Shown: positions 2,199 through 63,850 of the stretch, piece by piece
Layout: each line of letters opens with the position of its first letter
Numbering within the stretch: position 1 is the first letter of the stretch
Assembly (NCBI GenBank): GCA_963920765.1
Contig: OY987242.1
Coordinates: 23,336,002-23,400,001 of the forward strand
DNA length: 64,000 nt
DNA from: Ulota crispa
Lineage: Eukaryota; Streptophyta; Bryopsida; Orthotrichales; Orthotrichaceae
Direction: 5' to 3'
The notes under the pieces: model-generated
The model's input: only the letters and a program-made list of their open reading frames with translations
Databases searched by the model: none
What the model was told of the DNA's origin: nothing
Position numbers and translations under genes: made by a program

Positions 2199-2563
2199 TT
2201 AACCCTTGAAGGACTGACCCTGAACCCGTGGTTTAGTCCAGGAGAGTGTGCACTGTTCATGGGCAGTGTACAGCTTGTGACATGTCTCCAAGAGAGATAA
2301 TATTCTCCTCAAACAAAGGAAAAGTTAATAGTGTATCATGCCCTCACAGAAAGGGCAGTAGGGACCTTGTATATCTCTTTACAAATTGGTGTTTTAATAA
2401 ATATGGAGGCATTGAAAGCAGCTATTTTTGGCATTCAATGATGTGGCACATCTCTCTGTCCACTTTCAAGAAAAAATTTGAAAAAGAAATCTTTTTCCAC
2501 CCTCAAGGTGTGTTTTCGGCATGGAAAGGATAATTTTTGTCCTCTTGGACGGTTAGGGGTTAA
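2199..2563. mobile_element. Family A (TTAA, piggyBac-like) element A1
   Basis: It is bounded by TTAACCCTTGAAGGACTG on the left and CGGTTAGGGGTTAA on the right. The terminal match is weaker than in other copies, so the call rests on the paired TTAA-CCC and GGG-TTAA ends. It contains no transposase and is separated from A2 by only about 20 bp. Confidence 0.6.
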
Positions 2564-2583
2564 CTTATAGTACGCCTAGATTA

Positions 2584-3214
2584 TTAACCCCTAAATGCCC
2601 AAGGCACCCAATTTGGGTGTTTGCAAAACTTTGAAGACAAATAAAATCTTATCAAATCACTATTTTTGGTATTTTCTTTTTAACACAAGTTTTTTCTTAA
2701 GTCTATTTTCAGTATCAAAAATCTGATTTTGAAAATGAATGTTCATGATTTTTCTATTTAAGATTTTGTACAAGGGTGTCCACTCCAATCTTGAGTTTTC
2801 TAGTGTTGGAAGAACTTGAAAATGAGCCTCAAATACACTAGAGCTTGGAGAAAAATTTGCATTAGAAGTCCATTTAAAAAAAATACAAGAGTAGATTTTG
2901 AAAGCCGTAAATTGATTGAGGTTAAACATGTAATGACCTTAAACCTCATATTTTTTTGATGACCAAATGAGGATTAGAAGACTTCAAGTCACTTTTACAA
3001 TTTTGATATCCTCATGTTCAAATATTATAATCTTTCAAACTATAAGTGATATTGTTGTGTTTTCTTTTTCCATGTAATCTCTAACATGTCAAGTTTAAGT
3101 TTGTACAGTTACAGTTTTAAAAAAATTAATGAGATTTATGAAGAGGTTGGTTGATTGTTCACTTTCCTGAAAATGCCAAGAAGTTCAAAAAGGGCTTGGC
3201 CATTTAGGGGTTAA
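2584..3214. mobile_element. Family A element A2
   Basis: The ends are TTAACCCCTAAATGCCCA and TGGCCATTTAGGGGTTAA, giving TTAA at both outer edges. The interior is about 620 bp, AT-rich and non-coding. The same subfamily recurs inverted at 15196-19160 (there split by a CACTA element), and its right-end type also occurs at 10326-11163. Confidence 0.85.
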
Positions 3215-3544
3215 AGATTAAAGTATGCTGATTAGAACGACCTTTTAGTCTTTGTAAATAAATCGAAGGTAGGAAATGGTAAGGAACAGGAACTCAGTCT
3301 ACCCAAAACCATCATTCTTTGCAACCTCGGAATGAATGACACATTTTAGTACATTATAATTAAACAATGTATTTTTTCAAAACCTGCAATTTTTAACATC
3401 TAAAAAATGACACTCCTTTTTGTGCATAAATCTTGATTCTTAATGTTTTTTTTATTGAAGATCATAGTATATGTGGAAATAATATCAAAATGATATTAGC
3501 TTTCTAGCACTAATTGAATAATCTAATTGAAAGAATCAAACTAA

Positions 3545-3667
3545 GAGTACATTCACACTTGGTGTTAGGAGGGGTATTAGCAAAGGAAAATAAGATGTAT
3601 TTGGATGCACTTTTAGAGTACATTCATATTACTAATATCCCTTCTAACACCAAGTGTGAATATACCC
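3545..3667. mobile_element. Tourist/PIF-Harbinger-like MITE
   Basis: It is a 123-bp hairpin element. The left arm has CATTCACACTTGGTGTTA and the right arm TAACACCAAGTGTGAATA. The arms continue through GGAGGGGTATTAG and CTAATATCCCTTC. The direct repeat TAA (3542-3544 and 3668-3670) fits the 3-bp preference of PIF/Harbinger elements. A short reading frame across it is an artefact. Confidence 0.75.
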
Positions 3668-3670
3668 TAA

Positions 3671-4241
3671 CACAACAAGAAAATGGATATTTTATGTCTT
3701 TAAGTAATGACTATTGTGAATCATTCATAATTCTAAATGACTCATGATAATCATTAGTGAGAGTTGTAAAAAGCCCATTTTCTTCTAGTATAAGTAGGTC
3801 ATGAAATTACTACTTTACCTATACGTGTAAGACTTGTGTTATTCTTAAGCCATCTTTAAATGTTACGGCACATGCCACCATTTCTTGCATACAAAAATCT
3901 CAACTTAGAATTTGGCATTCATTAACTATAATATAACTTGTGTCCACTGTTGATATTGTATTCCTTGGATGTTCATCCTAACAAAGTGGAAGTTAGCTTC
4001 CATCATGACCGCTTGGCAAAGTAGTGAGCTCCTTTGCCCATTACCTTAACCAACCCCTTGAGTTTATATATAGGAAAAGACCCTTGTTTCCAAGTCATCT
4101 TAAGATATGTGGTGGCACACTATATGATGTCACCACAAGGCCAACTCCTACTCTTTTCTTGACTTATGCAAAAAGATCATGTGCACTTTGCTTTAGCTTG
4201 TGCAAAATACCTTTGGTGTATTTTGCCTTTGCTTGCAAATA
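3671..4241. other. Intergenic, no feature recognised
   Basis: AT-rich DNA. I see no gene, clear repeat end or RNA here. Confidence 0.5.
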
Positions 4242-4244
4242 CTT

Positions 4245-4375
4245 CACTACAAGAAAACATGGTCGAATCTACAAAAAAATTGACAAAAACTGTGACCTAA
4301 TTTACAGTATATTGTAGATTAGGTCACAATTTTTGTCAACTTTTTTGTAAATTCAATCATGATTTCCTTGTAGTG
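4245..4375. mobile_element. CACTA (CMC) MITE
   Basis: The ends are CACTACAAGAAAACATGG and the inverted match ending CCTTGTAGTG, with the 3-bp duplication CTT on each side. This is the hallmark of CACTA elements. The 131-bp element is almost entirely a foldback: its halves share CTACAAAAAAATTGACAAAA and the inverse. It is non-autonomous. Confidence 0.9.
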
Positions 4376-4378
4376 CTT

Positions 4379-5862: not shown

Positions 5863-6084
5863 TTAACCCTTAAACGTCCCTTGGGTTCTGGAGATACGGT
5901 ATCAAATATGATCACAATAGAATTTTGAATCAGCTAGAAATCAAGTGCTATAACTATACATATTAAAGAGTTGTATGATGATGGATGCATAATTTTTTTG
6001 AAAAGCCCTCAAAATAGCTCAAATACGCCTGTACATATGACCATGAGTGCGGTCACAAAGGGCATTTGGAACGATCGGGGTTAA
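5863..6084. mobile_element. Family A element A3, just upstream of the PPR promoter
   Basis: It is a short (222 bp) copy with TTAACCCTTAAACGTCCC at left and GGAACGATCGGGGTTAA at right. The TTAA edges are intact. It directly abuts the promoter-proximal hairpin of the PPR gene. Confidence 0.65.
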
Positions 6085-6858: not shown

Positions 6859-6958
6859 ATTTTCTATGAGCCTACACATGTGCAGTAAATGAAATTCCAT
6901 CTAAATCTAAGTATCCAATTTCCAATCAGGTCTATGAAGATTTTTTCAACTTTGCAGT

Positions 6959-9450
6959 ATGAGGCGCACTCTATCTACGGAGCGCCGACTGCTCGCAAGG
7001 ATCGGGATGGTTGCAAATTACATCGTCGACACCAAGCATTTCAAGTGCGAGATGGCGAGTGTTTGCGGCATTTGGGAGCCTCAGTTTCGGGACGCAACGA
7101 AGGAGCAGCTAAGATCGCTGCATTGCGAGGTTCGAAATGAGACGAATCCAGCCATTCTGGAGCACGAAGATCTCTCTTCCGAAGATTCACTACAATCTAC
7201 TGCTTCAGGGCGTGATGTTGTGTCTAACCCTAACCATAGTGTTCGGCGGAAGCAACAAAATTTAGACATGGATGTGGAGAGCACTTGCCGAATATTGGCC
7301 CGAGGGTTTTGGGGACGAGACAAGGAGGTTGCACTCGTAGGATTAGGGTTAGGGTTCCACCCAGGCTATGACTGGAAGGTGATGCAGAATCTGGCCAATG
7401 TGGACGTGGCCTACAGTTTCTTCAAGTGGGTGAGCACTCAGCAAGGGAGACCGAATAGCTTTCGAGCATGCAATGTGCTCATCTCGATGCTGGGCAACGC
7501 AAGACGCTTCACTGAAGCGGAACAAGTTTTGTTCGAAGTGAACAATTCTAGGGTTAGATTGCTCCCTCGGATTTTTATCGAGCTTGCACGATGCTATGCA
7601 AGCGCGGGGCTGTTGGAGAAGTCTGTGGAGGCTCTGAAACGCATGGAAGATCATGGATGCTTGCCTTCAGTACCAGCGTACAATTCTCTCATTGACGCTT
7701 TTGTGAAAGCAGGATACCATCAGAAGGCACTTGCGGTTTACAGAGTCATGGGACAATCAGGTTTGCGACCTGACACGTATACATTCAATGTGCTTATGAA
7801 TGCATTCAAAAAGGCGAAGAAGATCGACTCCGTGTGCAAGTTGTTCAAGGAAATGCAAAACCAGAATTGTATCCCTAATGTCGTCACGTTCAGCATGTTG
7901 ATCGATGCGCTCTGCAAGAGTGGCGAGGTTGGGGAAGCGGCGAACGTGTTTGCGGATATGAAGGCCCGTGGATGCAAGCCTAACGTTTTTACGTATACTT
8001 CGATGATTGATGGACTTGGGAAGGCTGGTCAAGTCGACAAGGCCTTTTTCCATTTTGAAGAAATGTCGGCAGAAGGCCTTGTGGCTAATCAAGCTGTGTA
8101 CAACTCCCTCATCCATGGGTTAGGAAGAACAGGTCGAGCGGATGCCGCAGGGAAACTGTTTAGAGAAATGGTTTCCAAGGGCTTGCAACCTGATTGTGTC
8201 ACATTCACCTCGCTTGTCAAAGGGCTCGGTGTTGCAGGCCGGACTAGTGAAGCTCGCCGGATATTTGAAGAAGCAAGGAATGTTGGCTGTGCATTGGACA
8301 CCAGTTTGTACAATGTCCTGATTGACTCTCTTTGCAAGGCTAAGCGACTTGACGAGGCATGGGAGATTTTTGGAGATTTAGAAGGTAAGCTCCTCAAGCA
8401 GAAGACACCGTCAATTATTACCTAGTAAGAAACACCAAGGTGCCACGATTTAAGGTAGAAGATACTACTTTACATTTTAACATATGTAGGAGTGTGATTT
8501 CTGGGATGTGGATAAAGTTGTGGGAGAGATCTTTGGGTACTAGAGCCAAACCTGCTGACACCAACTTTTTATCCCTTTTTACGCATTTCTTGTGCAAATT
8601 CAATATTGGAGGTTGTAGAACCATAGACTACCCCATCTCCATGCAAACACCATCTCCATGCAAACACCATCTCCATGCAAACACCAGTGGACTTAGGCAT
8701 TAAGCCAAGTTGTGCTTACACCAGTCCAACCACGATGAGTTGTGACAGGGGTGAGTTTGGGAGGCGGGATCAGATCCCTAATAGTTTTAGTGTCCTCTAC
8801 CTCAGTTAAAGTTGCAGAGACAAGTATGTTTCAACATGTTTATTATAAAAGGTGGTGGTCTATATGTGAATTTGACGAGTTGTTGTGCCTGTTTTCCAGA
8901 GGACGGGTTGGTTCCCGATGTGTACACATTCAATGCTCTTATGGACGGGCTTTGTAAAAGTGGCCGTGTTCACGATGCTTTCACTCTGCTTGGAGACATG
9001 AAACGTGCCGGATGTTCTCCAGACGTGGCCGTGTACAACACCCTGATTGATGGGCTTCGGAAGTCGAGCCGGGTGGAAGAGGTTGGGGAGCTCTTACGGG
9101 AAATGCGTTCTTTGGGTTGCGAACCGGACGCTGTCACGTACAACACACTCATAGACGAGTCATGCAAAGGAGGCCGTATTGAAGATGCGTTGAAGCTCTT
9201 TGAAGAAATCAGTGGGAAGGGATGTGCGGACACCGTCACGTACAACACCCTGCTCAATGGGCTCTGCACGGCAGGCCGGGTTGATGAAGCGTACAAACTC
9301 TTTGACGAGATGAAACAGAAGGAGGCTTTCGATGGTGACATTAACCCTGACTTTGTCACTTACACTACTCTTTTGAATGGTGCGCGCCAGGCTGGGTTGC
9401 CGGAACTCACACATTCATTGAAGAGGTGGAGGCGTAACGCAAGAGTCTAG
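6959..9450 (+). CDS. P-class pentatricopeptide repeat protein (exons 6959-8384 and 8900-9450)
   Basis: The 658-residue product is a sequence-specific organelle RNA-binding protein by family. Donor GAAG|GTAAGC (8385) and acceptor TTTTCCAG (8899) join codon halves to give GDLEEDGLVPDVYTF, restoring a canonical repeat. Residues 1-160 begin MRRTLSTERRLLARIG, Arg/Ser/Thr-rich and plausibly a mitochondrial or plastid presequence. From about residue 166 to the end run some 14 tandem 35-residue motifs of P type (for example NVVTFSMLIDALCKSGEV and DTVTYNTLLNGLCTAGRV). No E, DYW or SMR domain follows, so editing or nuclease activity is unlikely. Motif 12 lacks one residue and motif 13 is longer by five. 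The start is the first ATG after an in-frame stop at 6935 and directly follows the acceptor at 6957. Upstream lie a probable noncoding exon and a MITE-bearing intron. Confidence 0.92.
8385..8899 (+). other. Intron of the PPR gene
   Basis: A 515-bp GT-AG intron. Without splicing the first-exon frame runs into a stop at 8425, inside a repeat motif, while the continuation resumes in phase at 8900. Intronless copies are the rule for P-class genes in seed plants, so the intron is noteworthy. Confidence 0.85.
8634..8685. repeat. 17-bp tandem repeat in the PPR intron
   Basis: Three consecutive near-identical copies of CATCTCCATGCAAACAC. Confidence 0.9.
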
Positions 9451-10325: not shown

Positions 10326-11163
10326 TTAACCCCCAAATGCCTGAGGGTACATTTCTCGGTTTTGAAACTGTCCTCGTAAGATTACTATTAAACATTGAAA
10401 CAAAATTGTAACTGTAGGATCTTGAACTTCAAGGCTTATAGATGATGCTGCCAAGACAAACTCCTAAAAAGTCACGCAGTTGTTAAGATGTTTGTGATCG
10501 AATGTGGATGAGTAAGGAATTTTCTGGTTTTTTTGGAGTTGCTTGAAATTTCTAATGCAAAAATGACAAATTTTGAGTACAAAATTGGGAAACAACTAGT
10601 TATGATGATTTAGTGTTTGTTGTTGTTACTTCAAAACTAATGACTCCTCTTCCAAATCCATAATCACAATCATGAGCTTACAATGCAATTGTTAAATAGC
10701 TACCACCTAATTCAAAGAAAACATTTAGCTCCAATTATTGACCAAAAATCATTATGAAAGAAAGAGAATGCAATAGTGAGGGAATTCTACTTTGTATAAC
10801 AAAAACATTCTTAGTGAAATAAGTGCAAAATTGCATTTAGATTTTATGAGGGAATGCCCAAAGGAAATCTTCACTTTGTTCTCAGCTTGTTGCTTGTCTT
10901 TCACAATGTGGCAACTTGTCAAAGGCTATTTTTAGTGACTCTATTCATCACACTTTTTGATGTACAAAAGGTATGCTTGTAGTTTAGCTTTCACAACAAA
11001 TAATTGAAATGTAGTATGGAGGACGTTAAAATTGAATATTGAAACTAACTTTAGATTGCATCTTCTTCAAAATAAAATTTATAAAAAATCAAAACTCTCC
11101 TTTAACAAGGTCTTAAAGTTTCCTAAACACCCAAATTTGGTGCCTTAAGCATTTAGGGGTTAA
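10326..11163. mobile_element. Family A element A4
   Basis: The ends are TTAACCCCCAAATGCCTG and TTAAGCATTTAGGGGTTAA. The right 55 bp matches (inverted) the left end of A2. The interior is about 830 bp and non-coding. Confidence 0.85.
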
Positions 11164-12591: not shown

Positions 12592-13523
12592 TTAACCCCT
12601 AAAGCACTGAACACCCTTTTTTGGCAACATAGCAATTTTGGGCAACTCACTACCAATGGGATTTTCATATTTTTCCTTTGAAATTTTCAAATATGATGTG
12701 TCCAAAGAGTAGCTTTAAGGCCCAACAATTTTCATAACTTTTGGCTTCATGGTTCAAAAGTTATTGCATGAATTGTAGTTTTCTTTGCTTGGCAAGCAGC
12801 CAAAAAACTTCTTTAAAATTTACATTTTTTGAATTTTGTTTTTTGAGATTGGTTCTTCAAATTTATATATACTTGGAAGCTTTGAATCATTCCATTTTGA
12901 TCAATGAGATGAAAGTTATGAGGAGATTTTGTTTGAGGGCAGTTATGGATTTTCTCCTCTAAAATAAACTTTGAAATCCATTAATTTACTCAATTTTTAT
13001 ATTTTAGAACAAAACAAAATAACAAACCGATGTAGGTTGTTTATCACAACATAAGAACCATTGGGATTGGAATTTTTCATTTTCATGATTAAGTTCCTAA
13101 CAATTTAGTGGTTTGAATCATTCTCTACTTCTTTTTACTTACTATCGTTTTTCCATGTGTTTTACAGTTCCAAATGATTTGAACATTTTCAAGTATGTAC
13201 CCAAACTGCTTAGAAGATAAAATCCAAAAAATCACAACTGCATTTTGGAGTTTTATTCATACAAATATGACATTGTGAAATGCAGCTGCACATATTTTTG
13301 CAAAGAAAAAATGCTTTTTGTCAATTAAAACTCAAATATCTAACAATCTACATGGTGAAAACCCTTGGATTTCTTTTCACATTTTTTGATACTAGTGTAG
13401 TACAAGATCTTACGATTATATTTGTCAAAAGAAGTTTTTTTTCTAAAGTTTGGTACTTGTATTAGAAATAATAGTTTTGGAGTAATTTTGGTGAAACATT
13501 GAGCTTAGTGCTTTAGGGGTTAA
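12592..13523. mobile_element. Family A element A5
   Basis: The 20-bp ends match almost perfectly: TTAACCCCTAAAGCACTG and the inverse of TTAACCCCTAAAGCACTA. It is a full-length copy of about 930 bp in the same orientation as A20 (60595) and A12 (30177). It shares internal blocks with A20 such as ACCATTGGGATTGG and TTGAATCATTCTCTACTT. It contains no transposase. Confidence 0.93.
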
Positions 13524-14421: not shown

Positions 14422-14423
14422 TA

Positions 14424-14833: not shown

Positions 14834-14835
14834 TA

Positions 14836-15195: not shown

Positions 15196-15879
15196 TTAAC
15201 CCCTAAATGCCGAAGGCTTTTTTGAGCTTTTAGGAATTTGCTCTAAACTGAACAAAAAGTCAACTTTTGGATAAGTTTTATCAATTTTTTTAAAATTGGA
15301 ATTGTACAAATTCAAACTAGATATGTTAAATATCACACAGAAAAACAAAACACACCAAGCGCACTTATGGATTGAATGATTATAATGTTTGATCAAGAGG
15401 GTGTTAAAACTGCAAGAATGACTTCAAGTCTTTCAATCCTCTTTTCACATGTCAAATCTAAAATGTTGGTCACAAAAAATATGAGGTTAAAGGACATAAC
15501 ATACATAACTCCAATCCACTTACAGCTTTTCAAAATCTCTTTTATAATTTTCAAAAACAAATTTCTAGTGTGAATTTGTCTTCAAGATCTAGTGTACTTG
15601 AGGCTCATTTTCATGAGCTCTCAACACTAAAAAAGTCAAGATTGCAATTGACACCCTTGCACAAAATCTTGAATAAAAAATTCACCATCAATGATTTTTG
15701 AAATCGGGTTTTTGGTGGTAAAACCACTAGTAGAAAACTCCTTCCAAAACAATAGAAACCCAACAATTTCTTGTTGATTTGGGCACTTGCCCACGCTAAT
15801 TGACTAATTTAACAGAATTCTGTAAAAAACTAAATACATTCTGTTGATTTGGACACCATTATCTAAATCAACAAAAATT

Positions 15880-16880
15880 TTGGAATCTTATGAAGATCTT
15901 TTGGGATTTTTTTGTGAATCTTCAAGAATCTTCAAGAATCTTTTGGGAATCATTGAGAATCTTTTCAGGATTTTTAAGAATATTTAAGAATCTTTCCGAG
16001 ATTTTAGAATCTTTGAGAATCTTTTAGGAATCTTCATGAATCTTTGGAAATCTTTCGAAATCTTTTCAAGTTTTTTTGGAATCTTTTTGGAATCTTCAAG
16101 AATCTTTGGAAATCTTTGAGAATCTTTGAGAATCTTTGAGAATCTTTTGAAATCTTTGGGAATCTTTTCTTTTTTTTTTGGAATCTTTGAGAGTGTTTGA
16201 GAAAAATTAAGAATCTTTGAGAATCTTTGAGAATCATTGAGAATCTTTTTGGAATCTTTAAGAATCTTTGGAAATCTTTTCAAGTTTTTTTGGAATCTTT
16301 GAGAATGTTTGAGAACAATTGAGAATCTTTAAGAATCTTTGAGAATCATTGAGAATCTTTTTGGAATCTTCAAGAATCTTTGGAAATCTTTGGAAATCTT
16401 TGAGAATCTTTGAGAATCTTTTAGGAATCTTTGAAAATCATTTGGAATCTTTGGGAATCTTTTCAAGTATTTTGGAATCTTTGAGAATGTTTGAGAACAA
16501 TTGAGAATGTTTGAGAATGTTTGAGAATCTTTGAGAAATCTTTTAGGAATCTTTGAGAATCTTTTGGAATCTTTGGAAATCTTTTCAAGTTTTTTTGGAA
16601 TCTTTGAGAATGTTTGAGAACAATTGAGAATCATTGAGAATCTTTGAGAATCTCTTTGGAATCTTCAAGAATCTTTGGAAATCTATGAGAATCTTTTGGA
16701 ATCTTTGGGAATCTTTTCAAGTTTTTTTGGAATCTTCGAGAATGTTTGAGAACAATTGAGAATCTTTGAGAATCTTTGGGAATCTTTTGAGAATCTTTTT
16801 TGAAATTCAAAAAATCTTTGAAAATCTCTAAGAATTTTCAAGAACCTTTTTGGAATCTTTGAGAATCTTTTTAAAATTTT
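15880..16880. repeat. Tandem array of about 10-bp units inside the CACTA element
   Basis: The unit is GAATCTTTGA with variants (GAATCTTTTG, GAATGTTTGA, GAATCATTGA). A higher-order block containing CTTTTCAAGTTTTTTTGG then GAATGTTTGAGAACAATTG recurs about five times. Long minus-strand frames made of Lys, Asp, Ser, Phe and Ile are by-products of the repeat. Confidence 0.93.
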
Positions 16881-17732
16881 TAAGGAATTTGTTAAAGTAC
16901 TTCAAAATACTTATAGAAATAGAATCTCTTAGATTGAATTAGAGTCCTTTAGGAATCTTTTTGTAAATCATCAAAATACTTTCAAAAAAACTATCACAAT
17001 AGTTTAGGTTTGTTTTTGAAATCTTTCTAAAATCTTTTTGGACCTCATTAAATTCTTTTGAAGTTTTAAAAAATAAAAGAAGTTTTCAAAAAAAAAGAAT
17101 CTTTTAGAAGTTTGAGTGTACATTGACTGGTTTTATTTTCTTTACTTTTCACAATTTGGTAAGATTTAAAATTAGTAGCCTTTAAAGTCAAGTAAAAACA
17201 TGACCATAATAACAAAATACTCAACAGTTTTTTGTTGATCTAGATGCTTTTGGACACAACTTCACTAATTCAACAAAATTTTGTATAAAAAGTACAACAT
17301 TTTGTTGTTTTAAATACCAAAATTTCTTTACAAACAAATATAAAAGATGCTCCTCAATTCTTTGAAGAAATCATAAATGTCCCTTAAGGATTAAAAGTAC
17401 CAAAAATATCTTTGTGTTACATGATAACCAAGTGTATAGTTTAATGCAAATTCTTACAAGAAACCAAAGGTAATTTTTACATTTCAAATAACACAAGGAT
17501 ATATTTAACATTTCAAAATAGAAGAGTTATTTTATTAATTTTCCAAAATAATAGGAGTATAATTGATATTCCTACAAAAAATAAGGACTATTTTTTATGT
17601 TTCACATATTTTCGGCATAAACTTGATATTTTGAAAGACTTAAAGGGTATTTTTAGTATTTTTCCTTCTATTACTAACCAAATGAATTAAAAAAAATAAT
17701 CTTATAAAATATTTTTATAAGTTTTAAAAGAT

Positions 17733-18140
17733 GGGAATTGATATGTGTACCACACTCTTCTAATTACTATACCACACCACGAGGTAAATTTTAGATTTCA
17801 TCAAAAAGCTGAATTTGAAAATTTTGAATTCAGATTTGGACTTAGAGACCATGGTATTGTCTAGAACCATAAAAAAAATTGCAATTCAACAACACCTAAT
17901 GAAAAAGTTTAGTTAGGGAGAAAATTGTTAATTTTACTTTTGTTTATAAAAAAAGATAAGCTTTTTCATTGGGTGTTGTTGAATTGCAACTTTTTTTATG
18001 GTCCTAGACAATACCATGGTCTCTAAGTCCAAATTTGAATTCAAAATTTTCAAACTCAAATTTTTGATGGTAGAAATCTAAAATTTACTCCAGGGGTGTG
18101 GTACAGTAGTTCAAAGGGTGTGGTTCACATATTAATGCCG
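17733..18140. mobile_element. Family E foldback element, copy E1
   Basis: It starts GGGAATTGATATGTGTACC and folds on itself: CAATGAAAAAGCT-type sequence on one arm and AGCTTTTTCATTGGGTG on the other, with ACCATGGTATTGTCTAG and its inverse outside. The flanks TTAAAAGAT and TTAAAAAAT could be a decayed 9-bp duplication. A second copy is at 53427. Confidence 0.75.
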
Positions 18141-18652
18141 TTAAAAAATATCCAAAACTATTCAAAAGTCAACAGAATTTTGATTTTATAATTGCAAGGT
18201 TTTAATTCCGTAACTTTTCACGACTTCATGTTATTTGAAGCTATCAAACTATGGAGGCTATTTTAACAAAATAAGGTTATTTTTACAAAAAAACTAGCAC
18301 TAAATAATAATTATTAATGAATACAACCTTTGCTTGCAATAATCCTTATGAGATTTGTGAATTCCAATAAAAATTTATAAACAAAATAAAAAAGATAGAA
18401 ATAAACAATTTATTTAAAATTTCTAAACACCTTCTCTGACTTTAGCTCATAACTTTTGATAAAAAAATTGAAATCCAAAAAAATTGTTGGAGGTGAAAGT
18501 AAAGTACATTTACCAACTTTTCTTAGTTCTAAGTTTTTTGAAAAAAAGTCCTTTAATGGGCGGAAATAGCCTTCAAAGTCTACTGGATTACTAAAGACAT
18601 GAACATTTAATGTACAAATAGAATCAAGATACCTATGTGTACATGTGCATTT

Positions 18653-18790
18653 GCACATTCTCTAGTGGTTTTGAGAATGTGCTAAAGTTGTGGAGTGTTA
18701 GAGGAGAAGTGGAGGGTTCAAACCCCACTACCAGTAGCTGCCCGGGAGTTTGGGCAGCTGCCCGGAAGTTCGAGCAGTTGCCCATCTCCT
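18653..18790 (+). repeat. Possible tRNA-derived SINE or Pol III-like segment
   Basis: GGTTCAAACCCC matches the Pol III B box. A weak A-box-like TAGTGGTTTTGAG lies about 50 bp upstream. Two hairpins are present: GCACATTCTC with GAGAATGTGC, and AGCTGCCC with GGGCAGCT. There is no poly(A) tail or clear duplication, so the call is tentative. Confidence 0.3.
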
Positions 18791-19160
18791 AAAAAGTTCA
18801 CATTTTTGTAAAATAAAAACAAACTCTATGAAAAAAAAAATTTAAAAATGAAAAAAAAAAGAATTGAACAACATAAAATACGTAATAGAAATTAACAACA
18901 AATTAACAGAAAATTGTAAATAATCAATAGAAAATCAATAGAAAAGTACCCAAATCAACTTGACCAAATTCACAGAAAAAATCAATAGTTTTTGGTTGAA
19001 ATTCTGTTGATTTTGTGCTGAATTTTCTACTAGTGAACCAGACTTCAAAAATATCATCTTTGAAATATAAAATACTAAAAATAATAACTTCATTAGGTTT
19101 TATTGAACATCAAAATATTATCGGCACCAAAATGTGGTGCTTTTGGCAATTAGGGGTTAA

Positions 19161-21123: not shown

Positions 21124-21364
21124 TTAACCCCTAAAGGATTGAGCAACCATTGTACATACAATGTATAATGCTGTATAAGTGATATTTGGAATGCATTCAC
21201 ACCTCTACTACGTTTGATATCAATACAAAAGTTAGCATATAGACAAATGCAATTCTAGCGGGCTAGTCAAGATCCTAAATTAAAACTTTTTGTTGGTAGC
21301 AAATGCTAGTTATATGATAACGTACATCTACATACAATGGTCACTTGGTTCTTTAGGGGGTTAA
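21124..21364. mobile_element. Family A short element A7 (241 bp)
   Basis: TTAACCCCTAAAGGATTG pairs with TTCTTTAGGGGGTTAA. The same short subfamily is inverted at 45465-45703, sharing blocks such as GCAAATGCTAGTTATATGA and its counterpart. Confidence 0.85.
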
Positions 21365-22402: not shown

Positions 22403-23540
22403 TTGTCTTTTCACACGATTTATAACTTTGTTGAATATTAAGGAGGAAATAATGAAGCACTGTCCTCATAGGCTCATACTGCCCTTCACAAAGTGTCTTT
22501 CATACACCATCAATCCAGAATTATAGAGGGCTTTCACTCTTGACTTCCCTTAAAGAAATAAATAAAAGTTGTCCCACTTCGATTTATAATCATGGTACTC
22601 ATATTTAGTTTGTTATGAGCTTTTGAAATTAGAATCGGGTAATGCATAAAATTTGTTTGAATTTGAATTGCTCATCATCAGTTCACTGAAAACTTTGATA
22701 TGTAGTTATATTTTAAAGCACACTTTTAGAGGAATGGTTGTATAACGCACTATAGTTGTTTCGCTTTGAGCTCCCATTATCATACTTTCGAAGATCGCGT
22801 TACATCACATTTAAAATCACATAATTGTCTTATATCCCTCAAAAGGCAAACATCTCAAGTGCAATATATACAATCTTCATGAGCAAGTAGGTAAACTAAA
22901 AAGGAAATCCTTCTTTCACCCTCTACCATGTTGTTGAAAATAGTCAGCATATCACACAAAAATTATTATTTCTTGTCATTGATGGATGTGAAATGACTAG
23001 ATAATATTGATTCACAAACACATTTTTTTAATCCTCATCTAACAAGCATCTATGTTACAAGAGGCTTTGTCTTTGTAGCACTTGCTTATATTTTGAGTAT
23101 TAAGGTACCTACTCAAACACCTCATGTTGAGGGCACTTAAGTCAAAGTAGCTAATTTGAAATGGACAAAGAAGTAAAATACATTTTTGAAATATTGGAGG
23201 ACAACTACTTTGCTCGAGGTTTTATGCATTGTTTTACTAAAGATAACCTTTCCACCCTTCAAGGACAAGATTTTAGAGTTAACAATTTCCAAAAACTCAA
23301 AATTGCCAACTTTGAATAAAATAAATATAGAAAATAACACAAAATTCAAAGATTTGACTTTTACACGTAGAATTAGGTGCTTTCTACCACTTGTATTTTA
23401 CAAAAATCCGTTCTAGAACAACATTGTAATTTGGAATGGCATGGCCTTCAATGTACCTTCTATTGTGTAAGCACATATTACCACACACAACACATTGGGT
23501 ATCCAATAGAAATTATATGTAAAAAAAGACCACGAACTTA
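22403..23540. other. Intergenic, no feature recognised
   Basis: AT-rich DNA. I see no gene or paired repeat ends. Confidence 0.45.
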
Positions 23541-28397: not shown

Positions 28398-28444
<47 letters not shown>

Positions 28445-30985: not shown

Positions 30986-31120
30986 TTACCCCCATCGTTA
31001 AGGTGGTGTGTCACTGCGGCAAAAACTTGGGGGTAAGTGGCCTTTAGCATTCCAAAAAGCTGCTGAGTACTAATCCCATCAATCCAAAGCTGTGGTGTCT
31101 TGTAAATTCTTAGCAAGTTT

Positions 31121-34260: not shown

Positions 34261-34265
34261 CTTTA

Positions 34266-36100: not shown

Positions 36101-36119
36101 TTGTGAGATTGAATCCAAA

Positions 36120-45435: not shown

Positions 45436-45796
45436 AACGCCATATTCATTAAATTGGGAAAACCTTAACCCTTAAAGGACTACTCTATGTATTACATAGT
45501 AAATACGTTACCGTATAATTGGCATTTGTTACCAATAAAAAGTTTTAATTTAAGATCTTGACTAGCTCACTAAAATCGCATTGATCTATATTCTAACTTT
45601 TTTGTTAATCTCAAATGTAGCAAAGGTGTGGATGCATTCCAGATACAAAAAAATACTAAATATTGTATTGGCCGCAAAGGCTCCTTAGTCCTTTAAGGGT
45701 TGAACCTGAAAATTAGTTTAAGATGAGTAAGGTGGGACCTTAAACCTAGTTAATGTCCATAATGTTCCCAATTCTTAATTTAATGAACATGACAAG
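45436..45796. mobile_element. Family C MITE, copy C7, split by A15
   Basis: The left end AACGCCATATTCATTAAA is intact for only about 30 bp before A15. The right remnant runs to TTTAATGAACATGACAAG. The 4-bp duplication is not preserved (CTTA against TCTT). Confidence 0.7.
45465..45703. mobile_element. Family A short element A15, inside C7
   Basis: TTAACCCTTAAAGGACTA pairs with TAGTCCTTTAAGGGTTGA, the right TTAA having become TTGA. Inverted relative of A7. Confidence 0.83.
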
Positions 45797-45937: not shown

Positions 45938-46339
45938 AGGTAGATAGATCTTTCTCTCCATAATGTCATACTCTACATTTGAGATGTTCACAATTCACTG
46001 TGAACCAAAAGTGGAGCAATGAACACTTGCACAAGTAAATCTTGTCAAATGTTGGTTGCTAAGCTTATTTGGGAGGGTAGGGATTGGAACCGTCAAGTGC
46101 CGTTATAGGTACACATCCAAGCAGTTTCAAGGTTAGTCTACATTTACTTTTAGGGTCTTATGAGTTATGACTTTACTCTTTAATATAAAATGTTCTACAA
46201 CTTTTTTCCACAAAAATGACATTCCATGATAGCTTGTTGAAAGGCTAATCCTCTAGATTTGTTTTCTTAAATTTTTCAAGACCTTGTGAAACCCCAAAGT
46301 CCCAAACCCTTAAATAGTCGGGTATGGATATACCTACCT
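45938..46339 (-). mobile_element. Family B MITE, copy B4 (uninterrupted)
   Basis: Flanked by TA (45936-45937 and 46340-46341), with AGGTAGATAGATC at left and GATATACCTACCT at right. It carries the single TTAA at 46180-46183 that is the empty counterpart of the A9 insertion in B2. Confidence 0.88.
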
Positions 46340-51557: not shown

Positions 51558-53226
51558 GCTTTCCCTAAAGGATTGAGCCCTTTTTTCTATCAAAATCACT
51601 GAAAACTGCCACTTCTAGGGGATGAGTAAGAAGGTAGGTTCTTTTTTATTTTTTGAAAAATCCAACCGTAGGATATTGCCTTAAATTAGAAGAGGTACTT
51701 GTGGGAAAAAAACCAAATCATTCTAGATAGAGATGAGAGAGATATTTACATCTGAAGTGAAAATTAAGGTTTCTTTCTGTGTTGTCCAAAAAACTTAGAA
51801 CCCTTTGACCACTCTTACATGAAAAAAATCGCTCTACACAAAGTTGAGGTTTATTTTTCCCAAGTAGAAGATCACGTTTGGCATGTGTGGGAGAATTTTC
51901 AAATCAATTGGAACTATACCACACATGGGAAAAAAAAAGTAAGTAAGAAGAAGTAGAGAATGAGTCAAATCACTAAATTGTTAAGAATTTAATTGTTGAA
52001 ATGAAAAATGAAAATCCCAATGGTTATAATGTTGTAATCAGGGTGATTGCAAGAAACACTTGTACTATTTTTTGTCCCCTTCACCTCTTGCAGGTGCTTT
52101 CTGGCTTGTAACTTTTGCGCAGCAAGTTCTTTTGAGCTGCAATTTCAAAAGAAGGTACATGTCATAGTTACAGACCTTCCCTAATTTTTGCGGTTTTTTC
52201 TAAATTATTTTACTATTTATGAGCAGCCTCCAAATAGGTGTCTACTTGGCCATTTTGAGGGTTTTTAGTACTATTTTGGGTCCAAAAATCTTTTCTATGG
52301 CTATAAATCAGGGATGTTGTTTATGGAGCATGTTTACATGCATTTGTAAAAGAGTTTTGCAAAATTATAAATTCCATGGCATCTACATTGTCTCAAAATG
52401 GGCATCCAATCTCCCTTCATTGGCAAAATATGAAGAAATTCCTCAGCAAAGCAATTGTACCATGTGAATGTGTAATGGGTTCTCAAATGGCCAGTTCATT
52501 TTATTTTTTTGAATTATTTTACTATTTTCTAAAAAGCAAGAAAGAAATTGGCTTTTTGTTGGTGATTTTGTTTTATGCATAACTTTTAGAATAAAATTTT
52601 TCTAGGTCTTAATTTTCACAAGTTTGCTATTTTAAGTGCTTTACAAATTTTCCATATTTTCTTTTCTTTAAAAAAATTATTTCAAAAGCTCATAGTACTA
52701 CATAGTACTACCAGTTTTAAAGGTGTTTGAGACAAAACAGTGAAGTGTTTCTTGCAACTACCCTAATAAACAATCTACTTCTTTTGGTTTAATTTTTTTT
52801 CCAAAATATTGAAAACTATGGAAAATACATGACTTCAATTTTTATTTTAGAGTAGAGGATCCGTAACTGCCCACAAACTAAAACATCTCATAACTTTCAT
52901 CTCATTGATTGAAATGGACTGATTCAAAGCTTCCCACGTGTAAAAAAATCAAAAGCACCAATTTCAATTTTTAATTTTAGAAAAATGTAAATTTTAAAGA
53001 AGTTTTTGGGCTGCCCAAATTGCCCTCCCACCCTTGGGCAACAGAAATTCTTGCATAACTTCTTTGCCAAATGTCAAAATGAAGAAATAATTAGATACCC
53101 ACATAGATCTTTGAATTCCCCATCTTCCATAGAAGTTTCAGAAAATTACACAAAGCAGTTTAGCCATACGTACATCCCCAAAATCCCCATCATCCCCCGA
53201 AGGGACAACAGTCCTTTAGGGGTTAA
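51558..53226. mobile_element. Family A element A16, inside P2 and itself interrupted
   Basis: The right end CAGTCCTTTAGGGGTTAA is intact. The left end TTCCCTAAAGGATTGAGC has lost TTAA. Body sequence matches A10 in the same orientation. An unrelated element at 52039-52764 interrupts it. Confidence 0.85.
52039..52764. mobile_element. Nested 0.7-kb element with GGGTGATTGCAAGAAACACTT ends
   Basis: GGGTGATTGCAAGAAACACT and AGTGTTTCTTGCAACTACCC are inverted termini. By comparison with A5 (inverted) the interrupted host sequence has an apparent 3-4-bp duplication (AAT or TAAT). No transposase; superfamily unassigned. Confidence 0.78.
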
Positions 53227-53426: not shown

Positions 53427-53833
53427 GGGAATTGATATGTGCACACCGGGGTTGATATATGTACACCACTAGGTAAAATTTTAGATTTCTACCATGAAAA
53501 AGCTGAATTTGAGAATTTTGAATTCAAATTTAGACTTAGAGACCATGATTTAGTCTAGAACCATAGAAAAAGTTGCAGTTGAACAACATCCAATGAAAAA
53601 GCTAAGCTAGGGAAAAAAATATTATTTTTACTTTTGTTTGTAAAAAAAAATAAGCTTTTTCATTGGGTGTTGTTTAATTGCAACCTTTTTTATGGTTTTA
53701 AACAAAATCATGGTCTCTTAGTCCAAATTTGAATTTGAATTTCTCAAATTCAACTTTTTGGTTGTGGAAATCTATAATTTACTCCCCAAGGGGTGTGCAT
53801 ATATCAACCCTAGGTGTGCACATATCAATTCCC
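53427..53833. mobile_element. Family E foldback element, copy E2
   Basis: GGGAATTGATATGTGCACA and TGTGCACATATCAATTCCC are perfect inverted ends. The arms are colinear with E1. The flanks TTTAGAAA and TTTAAAAA would be an 8-bp duplication with one change, whereas E1 suggests 9 bp, so hAT or Mutator-like origin stays open. Confidence 0.88.
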
Positions 53834-55912: not shown

Positions 55913-56829
55913 TTAACCCCTAAAGGCCCAAGGAACCCACTTTGGGCTTTATGAGAACTCAGGCAAGCTCTATTGATTTCATAATTTGATAATTTTTCAT
56001 GAAATTTTTAGGATGGATGCTACTCATCATAATATACATGTGAAGCTTTATTTCATGTCATTCAGATAAGTATTGCAAAAGTCATAAGGTTTTTTCAATT
56101 TCAATGTCAAACCAGGTAGCAAAAAATATATTCTAAATTTTTTTTAATTTTTTTATAGAATTGTATAGATTGATACCTACTCAAAAAAATTTGAATCACT
56201 CAATTGCAAATAATGAGGGAAGAGTTAAAAGGAGTTTTCTTTTGTGGGCAATGAAGGTAGGAAGAGGGGTAGAAAAAACATATAAAGTTATCTTTTACTC
56301 TCAATTTTGAAAAATTTCAAATGAAAATGAAAATTAAAGTTACTAATTGTCTATTAAAGCATCTTGACCATTGGGAATAACAATTTTCAAATTCTTCCAA
56401 AACTTATTAGCATATTAGTTATATCTTTCATTCATCAATACCTTTCACTTTACAATTTTGTAAAAATGAAACCAAATTTTTTTTGGTTAAATTTTTTTAT
56501 ATATGCTTTCAACCCATTTTCCAACATATTGCAAAAATTGCACAAGAAATACAATATATGTGTTTTTTTCTAGAAAGTTTGAAAATCAAAACTTCACCTT
56601 TTGGAAGGATTAGAAGAACTTACATTTTGAAATTTAAGCATATTAATCTTGCAATTGGTGGGGATATTCATTCTGAAATTTTGGGACAATGTACTTGTGC
56701 AAGGCAACCAAAAGATCCTATGGTTGGATTTGTTAAAAAATAAATTTCAATGAAGATTTTGACCCTGATTTAGGTACTAGTATTTTGAAGCAGTTTTGGG
56801 CCCTAACACAATAGAATTTTAGGGGTTAA
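55913..56829. mobile_element. Family A element A17
   Basis: The ends are TTAACCCCTAAAGGCCCA and AATAGAATTTTAGGGGTTAA. It is an inverted counterpart of A11 over its full length, including the atypical AAAATTCT terminus. Confidence 0.93.
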
Positions 56830-57415: not shown

Positions 57416-58178
57416 TTAACCCCTAACGGCCCTAGCGCCTCACATATTGCCTCTCCTGATTTAAAGCCTTGTTTTGAGGCACTGGATTTAACTTTTTGGT
57501 CTTGCTACAACTATAATTATGAAGGCATTCAAGTTGTCCATGTCAATGGAGTAATGGTGAGGAAAGCCAAATTGTTGTACAAGCACTACAAGAGATTTGA
57601 TTTGGTGGAACACCGTACGGGGCAACACGGGTGTGGTGGCAAGTAGCATTTTACAAGCTGCAACTTGTCAGTATCCATCACAAGCTTCCTTGTGTAAGCT
57701 TTGTGGTAGCAGGAAAGTTGTTGGCAAGGGTTCAAGCATGTTCTAGATCCTTATTATGGCAACCGTCACCGATTATGCCAATCATTGTTTTCCATGCAAT
57801 AGCCATTTGAAGTGCTAAAACTTGACATAAAAAGAAGTGCAATCTTCAATAATTTACAAGTGTGTGCATTCACATCTAATCTTGTTGCTCACAAATTTTT
57901 AAATGAATCAGGATATTGTAGAATTTTGTAAAATTCATCAAATAGCAACTACCTACCAAAAAATGAGATTTTGTCATCACATGTTGTTTAATCAAATGTT
58001 ATAATCTCCCATCTCTCATGGTCAATTATTCCCAAAATTTACAAACTTTCTTTTAAGTAGATGTTCCAATATTTTCAATGATCACTTTTGTGTCATTTTA
58101 ACTGAGATACAATGCATCAAAGTTGCCGGTCTCCAAAAACCTGATTTTGGTGAAATCGGCCTGGGCTCTCAGGGGTTG
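57416..58178. mobile_element. Family A-related element A18
   Basis: The left end is TTAACCCCTAACGGCCCT and the right end GGGCTCTCAGGGGTTGT, TTAA decayed at the right. Its first about 90 bp match A21 at the window's end (CATATTGCCTC, TTGTTTTGAGGCACT). A 100-codon frame across its left edge is not recognised. Confidence 0.65.
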
Positions 58179-59815: not shown

Positions 59816-60594
59816 TTAACCCCTAAAGGATCAAAGAACCCACTTTGAGTTATTGGGATATTCGGGCAAGCATTTCTTGAGTAAATACAAAAGATAAGAT
59901 TGTGAAAATAGGGGTGTATGTGCTCGTATTGAAAAGCTTGCTTAACTTTCAAAAAAAAGTGGAATTGAATAATTTTTGAGTGAGACGTGGTATCGAATGT
60001 GATTTAGATGTCAACACGGGCATCTTCAAAAAAATTCAGAAACAAAGAGATTGAGAAAGGGTGTTGCCCAAATAGTGTTCAAAAGCACTTTACAATGGCT
60101 TGGTCAATGGGCAAAATTTGCAATCAACTCACCTTGACTATGTAATAACTTATGTTTTACTTTTTGTTTTTAGAAAAAAAATCCATTGGCAAGTACTCTA
60201 CATAATATTCTAAGTTTACACCGTACAGATTTTGTACTTGAGATTTATTTCTATGAGAATCTTTTCTGTGAAGTTTTCTAAATGTAATGACAATTTTGGA
60301 CAAAGCAATTCCCGCTTCCAATTGTTTTCCATTATGTTTTAAGCATTGGATGATCATGAAATTTGTGAGGCATATAGCCAACTTCATGCTCTATAAGAAA
60401 GCTAAATTGCACAAGAAATTCATAAAGTGGAAGATATCATTTTGAATGACCAAAAAAATATTTGATACCTTAGAGAAGCTTCAAAAAAAAGATTTACCCT
60501 TACTATGAGTGTTATAATCTACTGAAGTATGCCCTCACAAAGTTTGAATTTTTGAGAGGATGTACATAAACAAGTGAAAAAATGGATCTTACAA
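59816..60594. mobile_element. Family A element A19, right end missing
   Basis: TTAACCCCTAAAGGATCA followed by AGAACCCACTTTGAG matches the left end of A17. No right terminus is found before A20 starts, so it is truncated. Confidence 0.6.
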
Positions 60595-61510
60595 TTAACC
60601 CCTAAAGGACCAGACCCCCTTGTTTAGAAACATAGTGATTTCGGGCACGTACTTGTGATTGGAGCTTTTCATATTTTAGGTTGAAATTTTAATAGAATGT
60701 GAAGACAAGGTTTATCTTTCATATGCACTAAATTTCATGACATTTGGAATTATGAGTAAAAAGTTATGGCCTAATATGTTTTTTATGTTCATTGGGCAGC
60801 TTGAGCAGATTTTTGTAAATCACTTTTTTCAAAAACAAAAATTTCAAATTGGTTTAGGAGATTTATGTGAATGTAGGAAGCTTTGAATCATTTTGTTTGA
60901 ATCAACGAGATGAAAGTTATGATAATTTTTTGTTTGCGGGAAGTTATGGATTCTCTACTCCAAAATAAACTTTGAAGTCCTTTATTTTACTCAATTTTTA
61001 ACATTTTGGAAAAAAAACAAAACCAAAGGATGAATATTGTTTATGACAACATTATGACCATTGGGATTGGCATTTTTTGTTTCCATTATTATATTCTTAA
61101 CAATTTTGTGTTTTGAATCATTCTCTACTTTTTATTTACTAATTTCTTTCCATATGTTATACAACTTCAAATGATTTGAAACTTTTTTGACAAGTACTTT
61201 ACTTAGGTGGAATAAGGAATTTAGAGAAGCACCACCCACATGGCCTTTTTTCCTTAGGAACTTCACCTTCTGAAGGGTAGCTACCCAGTTTTTCACAAGA
61301 TGTTTTTGAATATTCAAACTATTCTAACTTCCAATTCACGTGGTGGAAACCTCTGAAATTTTTTCCACATCTTCTAAAACCATTCTTCTACAAGATCCTA
61401 CAATCATATATGCATAAAAATGTTTTTTTTTTCAAATTTGGTTGATGCTCTAAAAATGACAGTTTTGAAGAGTTTTTGGTGAAAACTTTGCTTGGTCCTT
61501 TAGGGGTTAA
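60595..61510. mobile_element. Family A element A20
   Basis: The ends are TTAACCCCTAAAGGACCA and TTGGTCCTTTAGGGGTTAA, an 18-bp perfect terminal match. Full-length (916 bp), same orientation as A5. A good reference copy for the family. Confidence 0.95.
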
Positions 61511-61620
61511 TATGTTGAAAACAATTTAAATTTTTAATTTACATTTTATTGAGAGATATCTAGTTTGAGCCATTTGACCATGTAAACTTGAAAGAATTTT
61601 ACAGGTTCAATCCAATTTTA

Positions 61621-61930
61621 AGGTAGGAGGCACATAATGGAGCATCTAGGGGCTGAAAGTGAATTTTGGGTAGGTGAAACTCCTTGTAATTAATTTCAAT
61701 AAACTTTCCTTGAAAGACAAGAAGAATCCACAATATAACCCAAGTTATTTCATATTTTTTAAAATTTTGTGGAATTAGTTATAAATATTTGAAGTGGAAG
61801 GGCCATAGGGCTCTATAACGAAGCACCTCCTCAAATGTACTTGAGCTGTACATTGTTGAAGGGCTATGAAAAACAAGCTGTACTAATAGAGTACATTTGA
61901 GGAGGTGCTCCGAATTTGAGCCTCCTACCT
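61621..61930. mobile_element. TA-flanked MITE with AGGTAGGAGGC ends
   Basis: AGGTAGGAGGC at left and GCCTCCTACCT at right, flanked by TA. Contains an inner hairpin GCACCTCCTCAAATGTAC with GTACATTTGAGGAGGTGC. Confidence 0.75.
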
Positions 61931-61932
61931 TA

Positions 61933-62263
61933 CAGCAAATCTGATATACATTGCTTGTGAATATAAATCACAATGAAACTACCCGTAATTAATAAGTAAA
62001 CAAATGATACACAACTTGCTAGATTTAGTAGCCTTAACCCGCCAAGTTCTGAAGCCGCCCTCGGAAATAATGAAAAATCAAGCCTAAAAAAGGCCGCCAT
62101 AAGTTAACTGTCCATTCGTCCTTTTCATTGAATACAAAAACATTCTCATCATTTTTTTGAGCAGAGTTACTACAGTGTAGGGTTTTATACCTTTGTAATC
62201 AATGAGCGTGGCGACGCGACGGAAAAGGCCCAATTTATCGTTCATCTTGCTCCATTTTCTCAG
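61933..62263. other. Intergenic, no feature recognised
   Basis: Short spacer before B5 without a supported feature. Confidence 0.4.
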
Positions 62264-62265
62264 TA

Positions 62266-62957
62266 AGGTACACTGAATATTGCGTTTAGGTTGCCCCACA
62301 CTAATTTTTCGAAATTTCACACTATATAAATATTTACTGCTGCTAGAGTGTCTTTCATCAAAAATCACTGTAACAAACCATTTTTAGATAGCCTATCAAC
62401 AACAATGAAGTAACAAAAAGACAAACTAGTGGCTTCCAAGTCACAAATCATGTGAAATTTAAATATTTAATGAGTTGCATGTGCCTCCAAGTGGCCAAGT
62501 GATGAGTCATGAGGTAACTTACTGGGATAAGGCAACCTAAATGCAAATTTCAGTGTAGACAAACCCATACCCAAGCGTTTAAGGGTTTGGGGTACCTCAA
62601 GGTCTTGAAAAATTCAAGAAAAGAATCAGCAAGTTAGCCTTTCAACAATATGTTGAGAAATGCAATTTTTGTGAAAAAAGTATTGTAGATTATTTTATAT
62701 ACAATGGCAAAGTTGCAGTTCATAGGGTTTCTATTAGCGACTCTAGACTACCCTTGAAACTATTTGGATGTGTTCCTATACATGTACTTGACAGTCCCAA
62801 TCTCGACCGTCTCTCAATAACTAAGCAAATGGCGTGTGGCAAGATTTGCTTGTGCAAGTGGCATTCATTGCTCTACTATGGGTTCAACAATGGGTGGAGA
62901 AGCCCCAAAAACTAGGGGTTGGAATTGGAAGACGCTTGGAGAACAAACCATCTACCT
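62266..62957 (+). mobile_element. Family B MITE, copy B5, with D3 inside its left terminus
   Basis: Terminal AGG (62266) is separated by D3 from the rest of the terminus (TAGACAAACCCATACCC). The right end is CATCTACCT before TA. It carries the empty TTAA site matching the A14 insertion in B3. Confidence 0.83.
62271..62555 (+). mobile_element. Family D MITE, copy D3 (285 bp, intact)
   Basis: CACTGAATATTGCGTTTAGG and CCTAAATGCAAATTTCAGTG are inverted ends flanked by TA (62269-62270 and 62556-62557). The TA belongs to the terminal repeat of B5. Confidence 0.9.
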
Positions 62958-63036
62958 TACATACTTCTTGCTTGATATAGGGACCTATGAGACAAGGACC
63001 CTTCTACTAGGATTTTTTTTGTTTCAATGTTCTATA

Positions 63037-63766
63037 CACTAAATAGTGCATTTAGGTTGCTCCACACTAATTTCTGAACATTCTGTATTATATAAATACT
63101 TACTGGTACTATGGTAATATTCATCAATAATCACTACAACAAGCAATCTTCAAAGGACTTGGTAACAACAATGAAGTTGCGGAAAAAAAAAACTATAGTA
63201 CAAAGCAGCATATACCAACAACAGTGTAACAATCATATTAACTATTTATAGAACACCTCATAAAAATAGAACACTTCGTAAATATAAGCAATGAGATGTT
63301 AGCTAAAAAGTTACAAAGAGAAATTGGAGTTATTGTTTGCCAAAAAAAAGTTATCATCATTCAAAAAGGGCCACTTTACACTAAGAAAACAAAGAAATGG
63401 CCGCCTTGGCACTTGATGCTCTAATATTAATAATTAACTTAAATACAATTGGCTAACTGACCAACTAAATTTAAGAAGCTATCACTACATTAATGTCTAT
63501 CCTTATACATCTTGGAATCCGCATGTGAGATTGGTGTTTCTTTACCACATGTTTAGTAGCTTTTAGGGCAAGGCATGACAAAAAGAAAAAGAAACTTTGT
63601 TGCCCAGGGCTTTGTCCGCTTCACAACATTTGTTGTTCTATGGTGGCATGCAACGTAGCTCCATCTGCAAATCATGTGAAATTCTAGTGTCTAAAGAGTT
63701 TCGTGCATCTCCAAGTGGCCAAGCAATGGATCATGAAGTAACTTTTCAAGATAAGGCAAACTCATT
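63037..63766 (+). mobile_element. Family D element D4, enlarged, right end missing
   Basis: Starts CACTAAATAGTGCATTTAGG after TA. D-like sequence resumes around 63655 (ATCATGTGAAATTCTAG) and breaks where A21 begins. About 400 bp of unrelated sequence lies in the middle. Confidence 0.65.
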
Positions 63767-63850
63767 GTTGACCCTGAGCGCCCCAGCGCCCCATATATTG
63801 CCTCCCTTGATTTAGAGCTTTGTTTTGAGGCACTAGATTTAACATTAGGA
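63767..63850. mobile_element. Left end of family A-related element A21
   Basis: TTGACCCTGAGCGCCCCA followed by GCGCCCCATATATTGCC matches the left end of A18. Cut off by H2. Confidence 0.55.

Follow-up and report, generated by a model that had tools for sequence, protein, structure and literature searches.

A 64,000-nucleotide stretch of the genome of the moss Ulota crispa (GenBank assembly GCA_963920765.1, contig OY987242.1, positions 23,336,002 to 23,400,001; hereafter the window) raises the question of which kind of transposable element gave rise to the numerous TTAA-bounded copies that it contains. An earlier note, based on the letters of the window alone, had counted about 20 copies or ends of the type TTAA-CCCCTAAAGG, assigned to them about a fifth of the window (12.7 kb), considered them piggyBac-like, placed them in a plant and predicted an autonomous-type partner. 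Our analysis makes it very probable that the window copies are non-autonomous piggyBac transposons of U. crispa resembling miniature inverted-repeat transposable elements (MITEs), that is, the ends of longer elements from which the gene has been lost. Each sits at a TTAA target and consists of inverted CCCC...GGGG termini, about 14-20 bp long, with subterminal sequence; their mobility is suggested by the comparison of sequences.

Ends of the elements in the window and in the genome

In the window, TTAACCCC occurs 29 times and TTAACCCCTAA 24 times, whereas 100 first-order random sequences averaged 2.15 and 0.04 occurrences and never exceeded 7 and 1, respectively. Fifteen elements with ends of the TTAA-CCC...GGG-TTAA type, the inverted termini beginning with CCC, can be drawn in addition to four orphan ends; the starts previously given at 12592, 26507, 55913 and 60595 were correct. 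The 15 elements add up to 14,540 bp (22.7% of the window), or to 10,575 bp if the 3,965-bp pair of ends at 15196-19160 is left aside, and the previous estimate of 12.7 kb falls between these two values. Exact TTAA is present at both ends of 13 of the 15 elements, the exceptions being TCAA at 45703 and GCTT at 51558. Since most of these end pairs were picked by the TTAA pattern itself, tests that are independent of TTAA count more. When the window was scanned for the inner 16-mer CCCCTAAAGGACCAAG and TTAA was not required, the matches were preceded by TTAA in 17 of 19 cases with up to two mismatches, in 22 of 26 with up to three and in 25 of 47 with up to four.

The same ends are abundant in the whole genome. 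The exact 12-bp end TTAACCCCTAAA occurs 30,972 times in 275 Mb, the reversed control yielding 77 occurrences. Its density is about 2.6 times higher in the window (297 per Mb) than in the genome (113 per Mb), so that the fraction of one fifth is not to be extrapolated genome-wide. The exact inner 16-mer occurs 3,614 times and the exact 20-mer with TTAA in front 3,038 times (84%), with no occurrence of either reversed control; genome-wide copies therefore begin at TTAA in most cases, so that the first refuting observation named in the earlier note, an inconsistent start at TTAA, did not refute its reading. A genome search with the element at 26507-27445 (40 of 9,780 candidates scored) yielded 40 rows of full or nearly full length with 90-100% identity, the query itself included. 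The 12 best matches, among them the window copy, have TTAA at the start in all cases and at the end in 10 of 12, and their flanks differ. Because these 12 copies share 95.4-97.8% mutual identity, transposition would have continued until recently in evolutionary terms.

Transposases and the ends that surround them

A whole-genome search with the piggyBac-type transposase profile PF13843 (DDE_Tnp_1_7) revealed at least 120 matches on contigs C1-C11, all above the cut-off and the best reaching 254.5 bits. Of 528 first-look candidates, 116 were scored; the counts are lower bounds, and some rows represent two pieces of one place. The same profile had no match in any of 14 control genomes. For PF10551, the domain of MULE, a classic plant DNA transposase, there were 74 first-look candidates and 54 matches, compared with the 528 candidates for piggyBac, the two domains being of different lengths. 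The open reading frame (ORF) of one locus, L012, matched two distinct sequences in PDB at E <= 0.1, namely piggyBat (9c0f) and an entry named "Transposase" (6x67), which we take to be the piggyBac of Trichoplusia ni; the E-values of the pair were 1.7e-16 and 3e-13, and Pfam assigned PF13843 alone to this ORF. Pfam searches with 13 ORFs from transposase loci, which had been preselected by PF13843, gave PF13843 in six cases and nothing in the other seven; in five ORFs, PF13843 was the sole match at E <= 0.001. In an alignment of 12 sequences (numbering of the L012 ORF), D278 is invariant and D191 is conserved in at least 90%, and the third and fourth acidic motif positions (GVD..DQ) are present in the second L012 ORF, L017, L022 (as GID) and L041, with L018 having GVN at the GVD position; we assume that D191, D278 and the GVD..DQ positions are the catalytic residues. 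Inspection by eye reveals a Cys-rich stretch in the second L012 ORF, a candidate for the C-terminal zinc-binding domain of the piggyBac superfamily that no profile matched. L013 and L041 possess long upstream ORFs, possibly part of the transposase, with no Pfam match.

One link between these enzymes and the ends is provided by L012. This element is 5,746 bp long, carries TTAACCCCTAAATGCC at both ends and has the transposase between them. The left part of the window element 10326-11163 corresponds to its left end (84% over 31 bp, followed by 77% over 494 aligned bp), and the right part to its right end (70% over 205 aligned bp). A genome search with the L012 element (40 of 6,145 candidates scored) revealed 33 short left ends; not counted among them are L012, three loci that bear a transposase and a row at 76% (C4:17829277). 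In 29 of these 33 cases the right end is also present on the same strand, with an overall length of 904-1064 bp. The left end and the transposase region of L012 lie in line at C9:1933610, C4:5933793 and C4:14102591, the two C4 loci also being PF13843 rows. At L041 (C2) the left-end region aligns to L012, and the pair scan gave no TTAA-CC pair at this locus. On these alignments, the window element 10326-11163 and the 29 genomic copies are internal-deletion derivatives of piggyBac.

Twenty transposase loci were read as stretches of about 9 kb and scanned for pairs of TTAA-CC ends by means of a score that gave a bonus to CCC. Clear pairs, delimiting elements of 5.0-5.7 kb, were found in seven of them (L009, L012, L013, L014, L024, L027 and L028), and CC-type ends recur around several transposase lineages. 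Three findings are independent of the CCC-favouring score: the derivation of 10326-11163 from the L012 element, described above; a homology between the L024 and L028 elements that covers their whole length, terminal TTAA included, with 89-93% identity; and the insertion of the transposase element of L028 (5.3 kb) at a TTAA inside a MITE of the type found in the window at 36929-37733. For the AAAGGACCAAG group, 58-64 bp at the ends of the elements at 26507 and 60595 recur at the right terminus of L011, a stretch that carries a transposase. A genome search with L011:3943-7037 (40 of 1,719 candidates scored) listed 40 matches, that is, L011 itself, a second transposase locus and 38 places matching only the last 590-810 bp, one of which stops well before the terminus. 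The second transposase locus lies on C10 and is collinear with L011 in the transposase as well as in the right-end region, at about 70%. A DDE_Tnp_1_7-family transposase does lie inside long elements with these ends, so that the second refuting observation named in the earlier note, another transposase class in such elements, did not refute its reading either, and the piggyBac-like identity is supported.

According to the mechanism that we propose, the PF13843 transposase encoded by the long elements would bind the common termini and cut at TTAA, and long and short elements would be pasted into new TTAA sites, the short ones in trans, with duplication of TTAA. The short elements would have been produced by internal deletion, which in the L012 case would have kept one long and one short end.

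Some of the transposase matches have features of their own. The match at L022:3850-5538 (G000:C1:1180709-1181995) consists of two open blocks with no internal stops, and no TTAA-CC pair was found around it; one possible reading is an intron-containing gene, perhaps domesticated by the host. Moreover, three pairs of matches in opposite orientation have equal or nearly equal scores and lie 14-109 kb apart (G000:C2:36765124/36779670, C7:18203169/18223004 and C10:676128/785346); these are inverted duplications or assembly artefacts.

Target sites, counter-evidence and rival explanations

The flanks of the window elements were joined with a single TTAA (16 joins), and alignments crossing the junction were sought in paralogous copies of the host repeats. 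The joined flanks aligned across the junction for two elements, 25333-26256 and 36929-37733, and the remaining 14 of the 16 joins had no match across it. The former element sits in a dispersed repeat with four further copies in the window, which represent empty sites at 46031-46314 (78%), 39528-39249 (78%), 62853-62573 (76%) and 14729-14448 (68%); three of the four have kept TTAA. For 36929-37733, empty sites were found at 62268, 48850 and 63035 (77-83%), where only 17-23 bases align to the left of the junction. In addition, when a single TTAA connects the flanks of the L028 transposase element, they match the window copy 36929-37733 across the junction, and the target there reads TTAA. From the empty sites it follows that insertion took place at one TTAA-like motif and left TTAA on either side of the element. 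Together with the TTAA in front of 84% of the exact inner ends, this agrees with the target of the piggyBac superfamily, with the proviso that duplication of TA alone within TTAA would produce the same picture.

Several observations weigh against the piggyBac assignment or narrow it. The target is altered in the 62853 copy and reads TTAG at all three empty sites of 36929-37733. Since TTAA is palindromic, a duplication of TTAA cannot be distinguished on the empty sites alone from one of TA at a TTAA target; it is the transposase evidence that decides this question. Concerning the transposase loci, two of the 20 (L010 and L016) have weaker TTAA-CC pairs, which rest partly on expectation because the pair score favoured CCC, and 11 were assigned no pair, the stretch of L025 ending too near its transposase; without the CCC bonus, the weakest of the seven clear pairs are near background. 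At least one stop interrupts 110 of the 120 PF13843 rows and only 10 are free of stops, so that a working transposase is putative; the autonomous-type partner predicted by the earlier note was found with this qualification. In the AAAGGACCAAG group, the left end of L011 was looked for and not found, and no intact TTAA-CCC end and no two-ended element was found at the C10 locus. Similar MITE sequence lies to the right of both loci, which may represent an old duplication of a single locus. With one end of the transposase element found and the left end of L011 missing, the parent of this group is only half shown.

TTAA targets are common to piggyBac, Kolobok and Sola3, and the copies might thus be MITEs of one of the latter two superfamilies, piggyBac-like only at their ends; several MITE subfamilies for which no transposase element bearing both matching ends was found would fit this idea. 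However, the deletion derivatives of a PF13843 element include a window copy and 29 two-ended genomic copies, the 13 ORFs from loci chosen by PF13843 gave six PF13843 matches and otherwise nothing in Pfam, and CC-type ends surround several transposase lineages. We consider a Kolobok or Sola3 origin very unlikely, and for the CCCCTAAATG group it is largely refuted. Nor does the target leave much room for Harbinger- or mariner-type MITEs with duplications of 3 bp (TTA/TAA) or 2 bp (TA) that happen to sit in TTAA: TA, TTA and TAA are all contained in TTAA, and if the TTAA target were invariable the product of a shorter duplication would be no different, but the complete TTAA precedes 3,038 of the 3,614 exact inner ends, and the long elements contain a PF13843 transposase. 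Among the 13 ORFs scanned with Pfam, from loci chosen by PF13843, none gave a PIF/Harbinger transposase, and this explanation appears extremely improbable.

The assignment to piggyBac might be right and its assignment to the moss wrong, if the sequences were contaminants or had recently invaded from an animal or fungus associated with the moss. According to the passages considered of PMC12732532, piggyBac has been described mainly from animals, fungi and protists, and the only relative listed with an organism name is from Elysia crispata (34%). Contamination is refuted by the matches on the chromosome-scale contigs C1-C11. Neither the 30,972 exact ends nor the position of 16 own transposases at several deep places of the tree, rather than in one recent clade, fits a recent arrival, so that we regard an external source of this kind as highly improbable, even though the moss piggyBac may have an old horizontal origin.

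Individual elements, diversity and known systems

The interiors of the window elements fall into groups. The non-autonomous element 27715-28651 (937 bp, plus strand) is 87% identical to 55913-56829 (917 bp, minus strand), which is inverted with respect to it. The element 12592-13523 (932 bp, plus) is 69.6% identical to 60595-61510 (916 bp, plus), the right 64 bp of which are 78% like the terminus beside the L011 transposase. The element 26507-27445 (939 bp, plus) groups with 51558-53226 (1,669 bp, plus), a member of the 26507/12592 group whose left end has decayed to GCTT. The latter, a piggyBac MITE, contains an insertion of ~727 bp at about 52039-52765, with terminal inverted repeats of a CAGGGTGATTGCAAGAAACAC-like type. 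A further group comprises 2584-3214 (631 bp, minus), which has CCCCTAAATG ends and whose left 37 bp are 92% like a terminus of the L012 transposase element, and the long pair of ends at 15196-19160 (3,965 bp, plus). This pair encloses a minisatellite (15866-17060), the unit of which is about 10 bp long, and a foldback repeat; its six frames, with stops read as X, gave no transposase in Pfam, the best chance match (E 0.0035) being below its cut-off. A foldback repeat of about 300 bp recurs within piggyBac elements and next to them, at window positions 17799-18091 and 53493-53785, as well as at L012:2517-2850 and L021:552-906.

The remaining non-autonomous elements are the L012-type internal-deletion derivative 10326-11163 (838 bp, plus), 25333-26256 (924 bp, plus), with its four paralogous empty sites, and 36929-37733 (805 bp, plus), with its three, which is also the uninterrupted relative of the host MITE of L028. 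Shorter elements are found at 2199-2563 (365 bp, strand unassigned), with weaker ends of the types TTAACCCTTGAAGG and TTAACCCCTAACCG, at 21124-21364 (241 bp, plus), whose interior is over 142 bp 84% like that of 45465-45703 (239 bp, minus; right end TCAA), and possibly at 5863-6084 (222 bp, strand unassigned), where the ends are weak and no relatives were found within the window. The orphan ends are located at 30177-30280 (plus; TTAACCTCTAAAGGACC), resembling the right end of 26507-27445, at 36776-36835 (minus), resembling its left end, at 57416-57445 (plus) and at 59816-59871 (plus), resembling 55913.

Other features of the window comprise a PPR (pentatricopeptide repeat) gene in two open stretches (6938-9450), the nearest relatives of the first stretch being 68-85% identical and the PPR homologues confirming that the DNA is that of a plant, a palindrome with 424-bp arms that are 98% complementary and 50 bp apart (23538-24435), and a degenerate long terminal repeat (LTR) retrotransposon (30677-36423) with LTR-like repeats of about 300 bp (91% identical) and a piece of reverse transcriptase (PF00078). 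Rfam had no match in the window at gathering scores.

The transposase tree comprises 45 rows, of which 16 are own transposases and 29 database proteins; the own sequences need six label changes, five of them forced by well-supported branches; the transposases of U. crispa are best read as several deep lineages among the database proteins. These lineages are about 31-39% identical to each other, L012 and L041 reaching 78%. Two homologue searches gave 17 and 24 matches, none of them from a named plant, which is not proof of absence since the sensitivity was limited and plant proteomes often omit transposons.

Many two-ended MITEs have a length of 909-939 bp, both in the window (26507, 27715, 55913, 60595, 12592 and 25333) and in the stretches L011, L014, L018, L023 and L027, and 25 of the 29 L012-derived copies measure 904-944 bp; exceptions measure 222, 239, 241, 365, 631, 805, 838, 896 and 969 bp. 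Against a null of 12 shuffles per pair, the interiors of the L014 group are unrelated to those of the other groups (z at most 5.9), and those of the 27715, 60595 and 25333 groups are weakly related (z up to about 13). The shared length may reflect weak common descent, chance, sampling or a constraint on length. It is possible, although we hold this idea as tentative and rather doubtful, that mosses have their own old piggyBac radiation of many lineages, unseen in named plant protein sets, and that U. crispa repeatedly shed MITE families of ~900-940 bp. If this were true, the convergence on ~900-940 bp of elements whose interiors are unrelated, or related only weakly, would suggest that the transposition machinery itself constrains their length; the weak relatedness of some MITE groups lowers the odds of this reading.

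The claim of the earlier note that piggyBac is not established in land-plant genomes fits the published passages considered, which are nevertheless mixed. In these passages, piggyBac is said to be occasional in plants, e.g., in red algae (PMC12732532), "plants" are mentioned among its hosts with no detail (PMC10140906, PMC8086355 and PMC10813416), and a repeat table of the fern Ceratopteris (PMC6890710) gives 1,230 PiggyBac copies, corresponding to 122 kb and 0.00% of the assembly. In the main text of the U. crispa genome note (PMC11803377), neither "repeat" nor "transpos" occurs. Within the literature searched, the coverage of which was partial, no paper recognisable by title or abstract deals with resident piggyBac in mosses; a Niphotrichum paper that had been a candidate was rejected, the text match being "piggybacking". 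The moss case shows that piggyBac can become a major and diverse component of a land-plant genome, and it suggests that a dominant family can escape an annotation of plant repeats that is limited to the superfamilies usual in plants. The long-standing question of whether plant piggyBac was anciently inherited or horizontally transferred also becomes testable.

As for the known systems, the elements of U. crispa resemble the piggyBac of Trichoplusia ni and piggyBat in the TTAA target, in the DDE_Tnp_1_7-type transposase, whose DE and DN motifs align, and in the CCC termini, which are a feature of both. They differ from them in a transposase sequence that is only distantly similar, in the long upstream ORFs and in the host, a moss. 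Insect piggyBac-type MITEs likewise lack the gene and keep TTAA and the ends of their parent elements, whereas in the moss several subfamilies measure about 900-940 bp, above the usual size of MITEs, and the genome has 30,972 exact 12-bp ends in 275 Mb. The moss elements, at 5.0-5.7 kb, are also larger than the beetle piggyBac elements, for which a passage of PMC12732532 gives 2,074-3,465 bp. The Ceratopteris entry shares with the present case the PiggyBac label in a land plant and differs from it in that the passage concerned (PMC6890710) gives neither transposase nor termini. The kind of element was already known; what is new, as far as the searches show, is its host, its scale and, in comparison with beetle piggyBac, its size.

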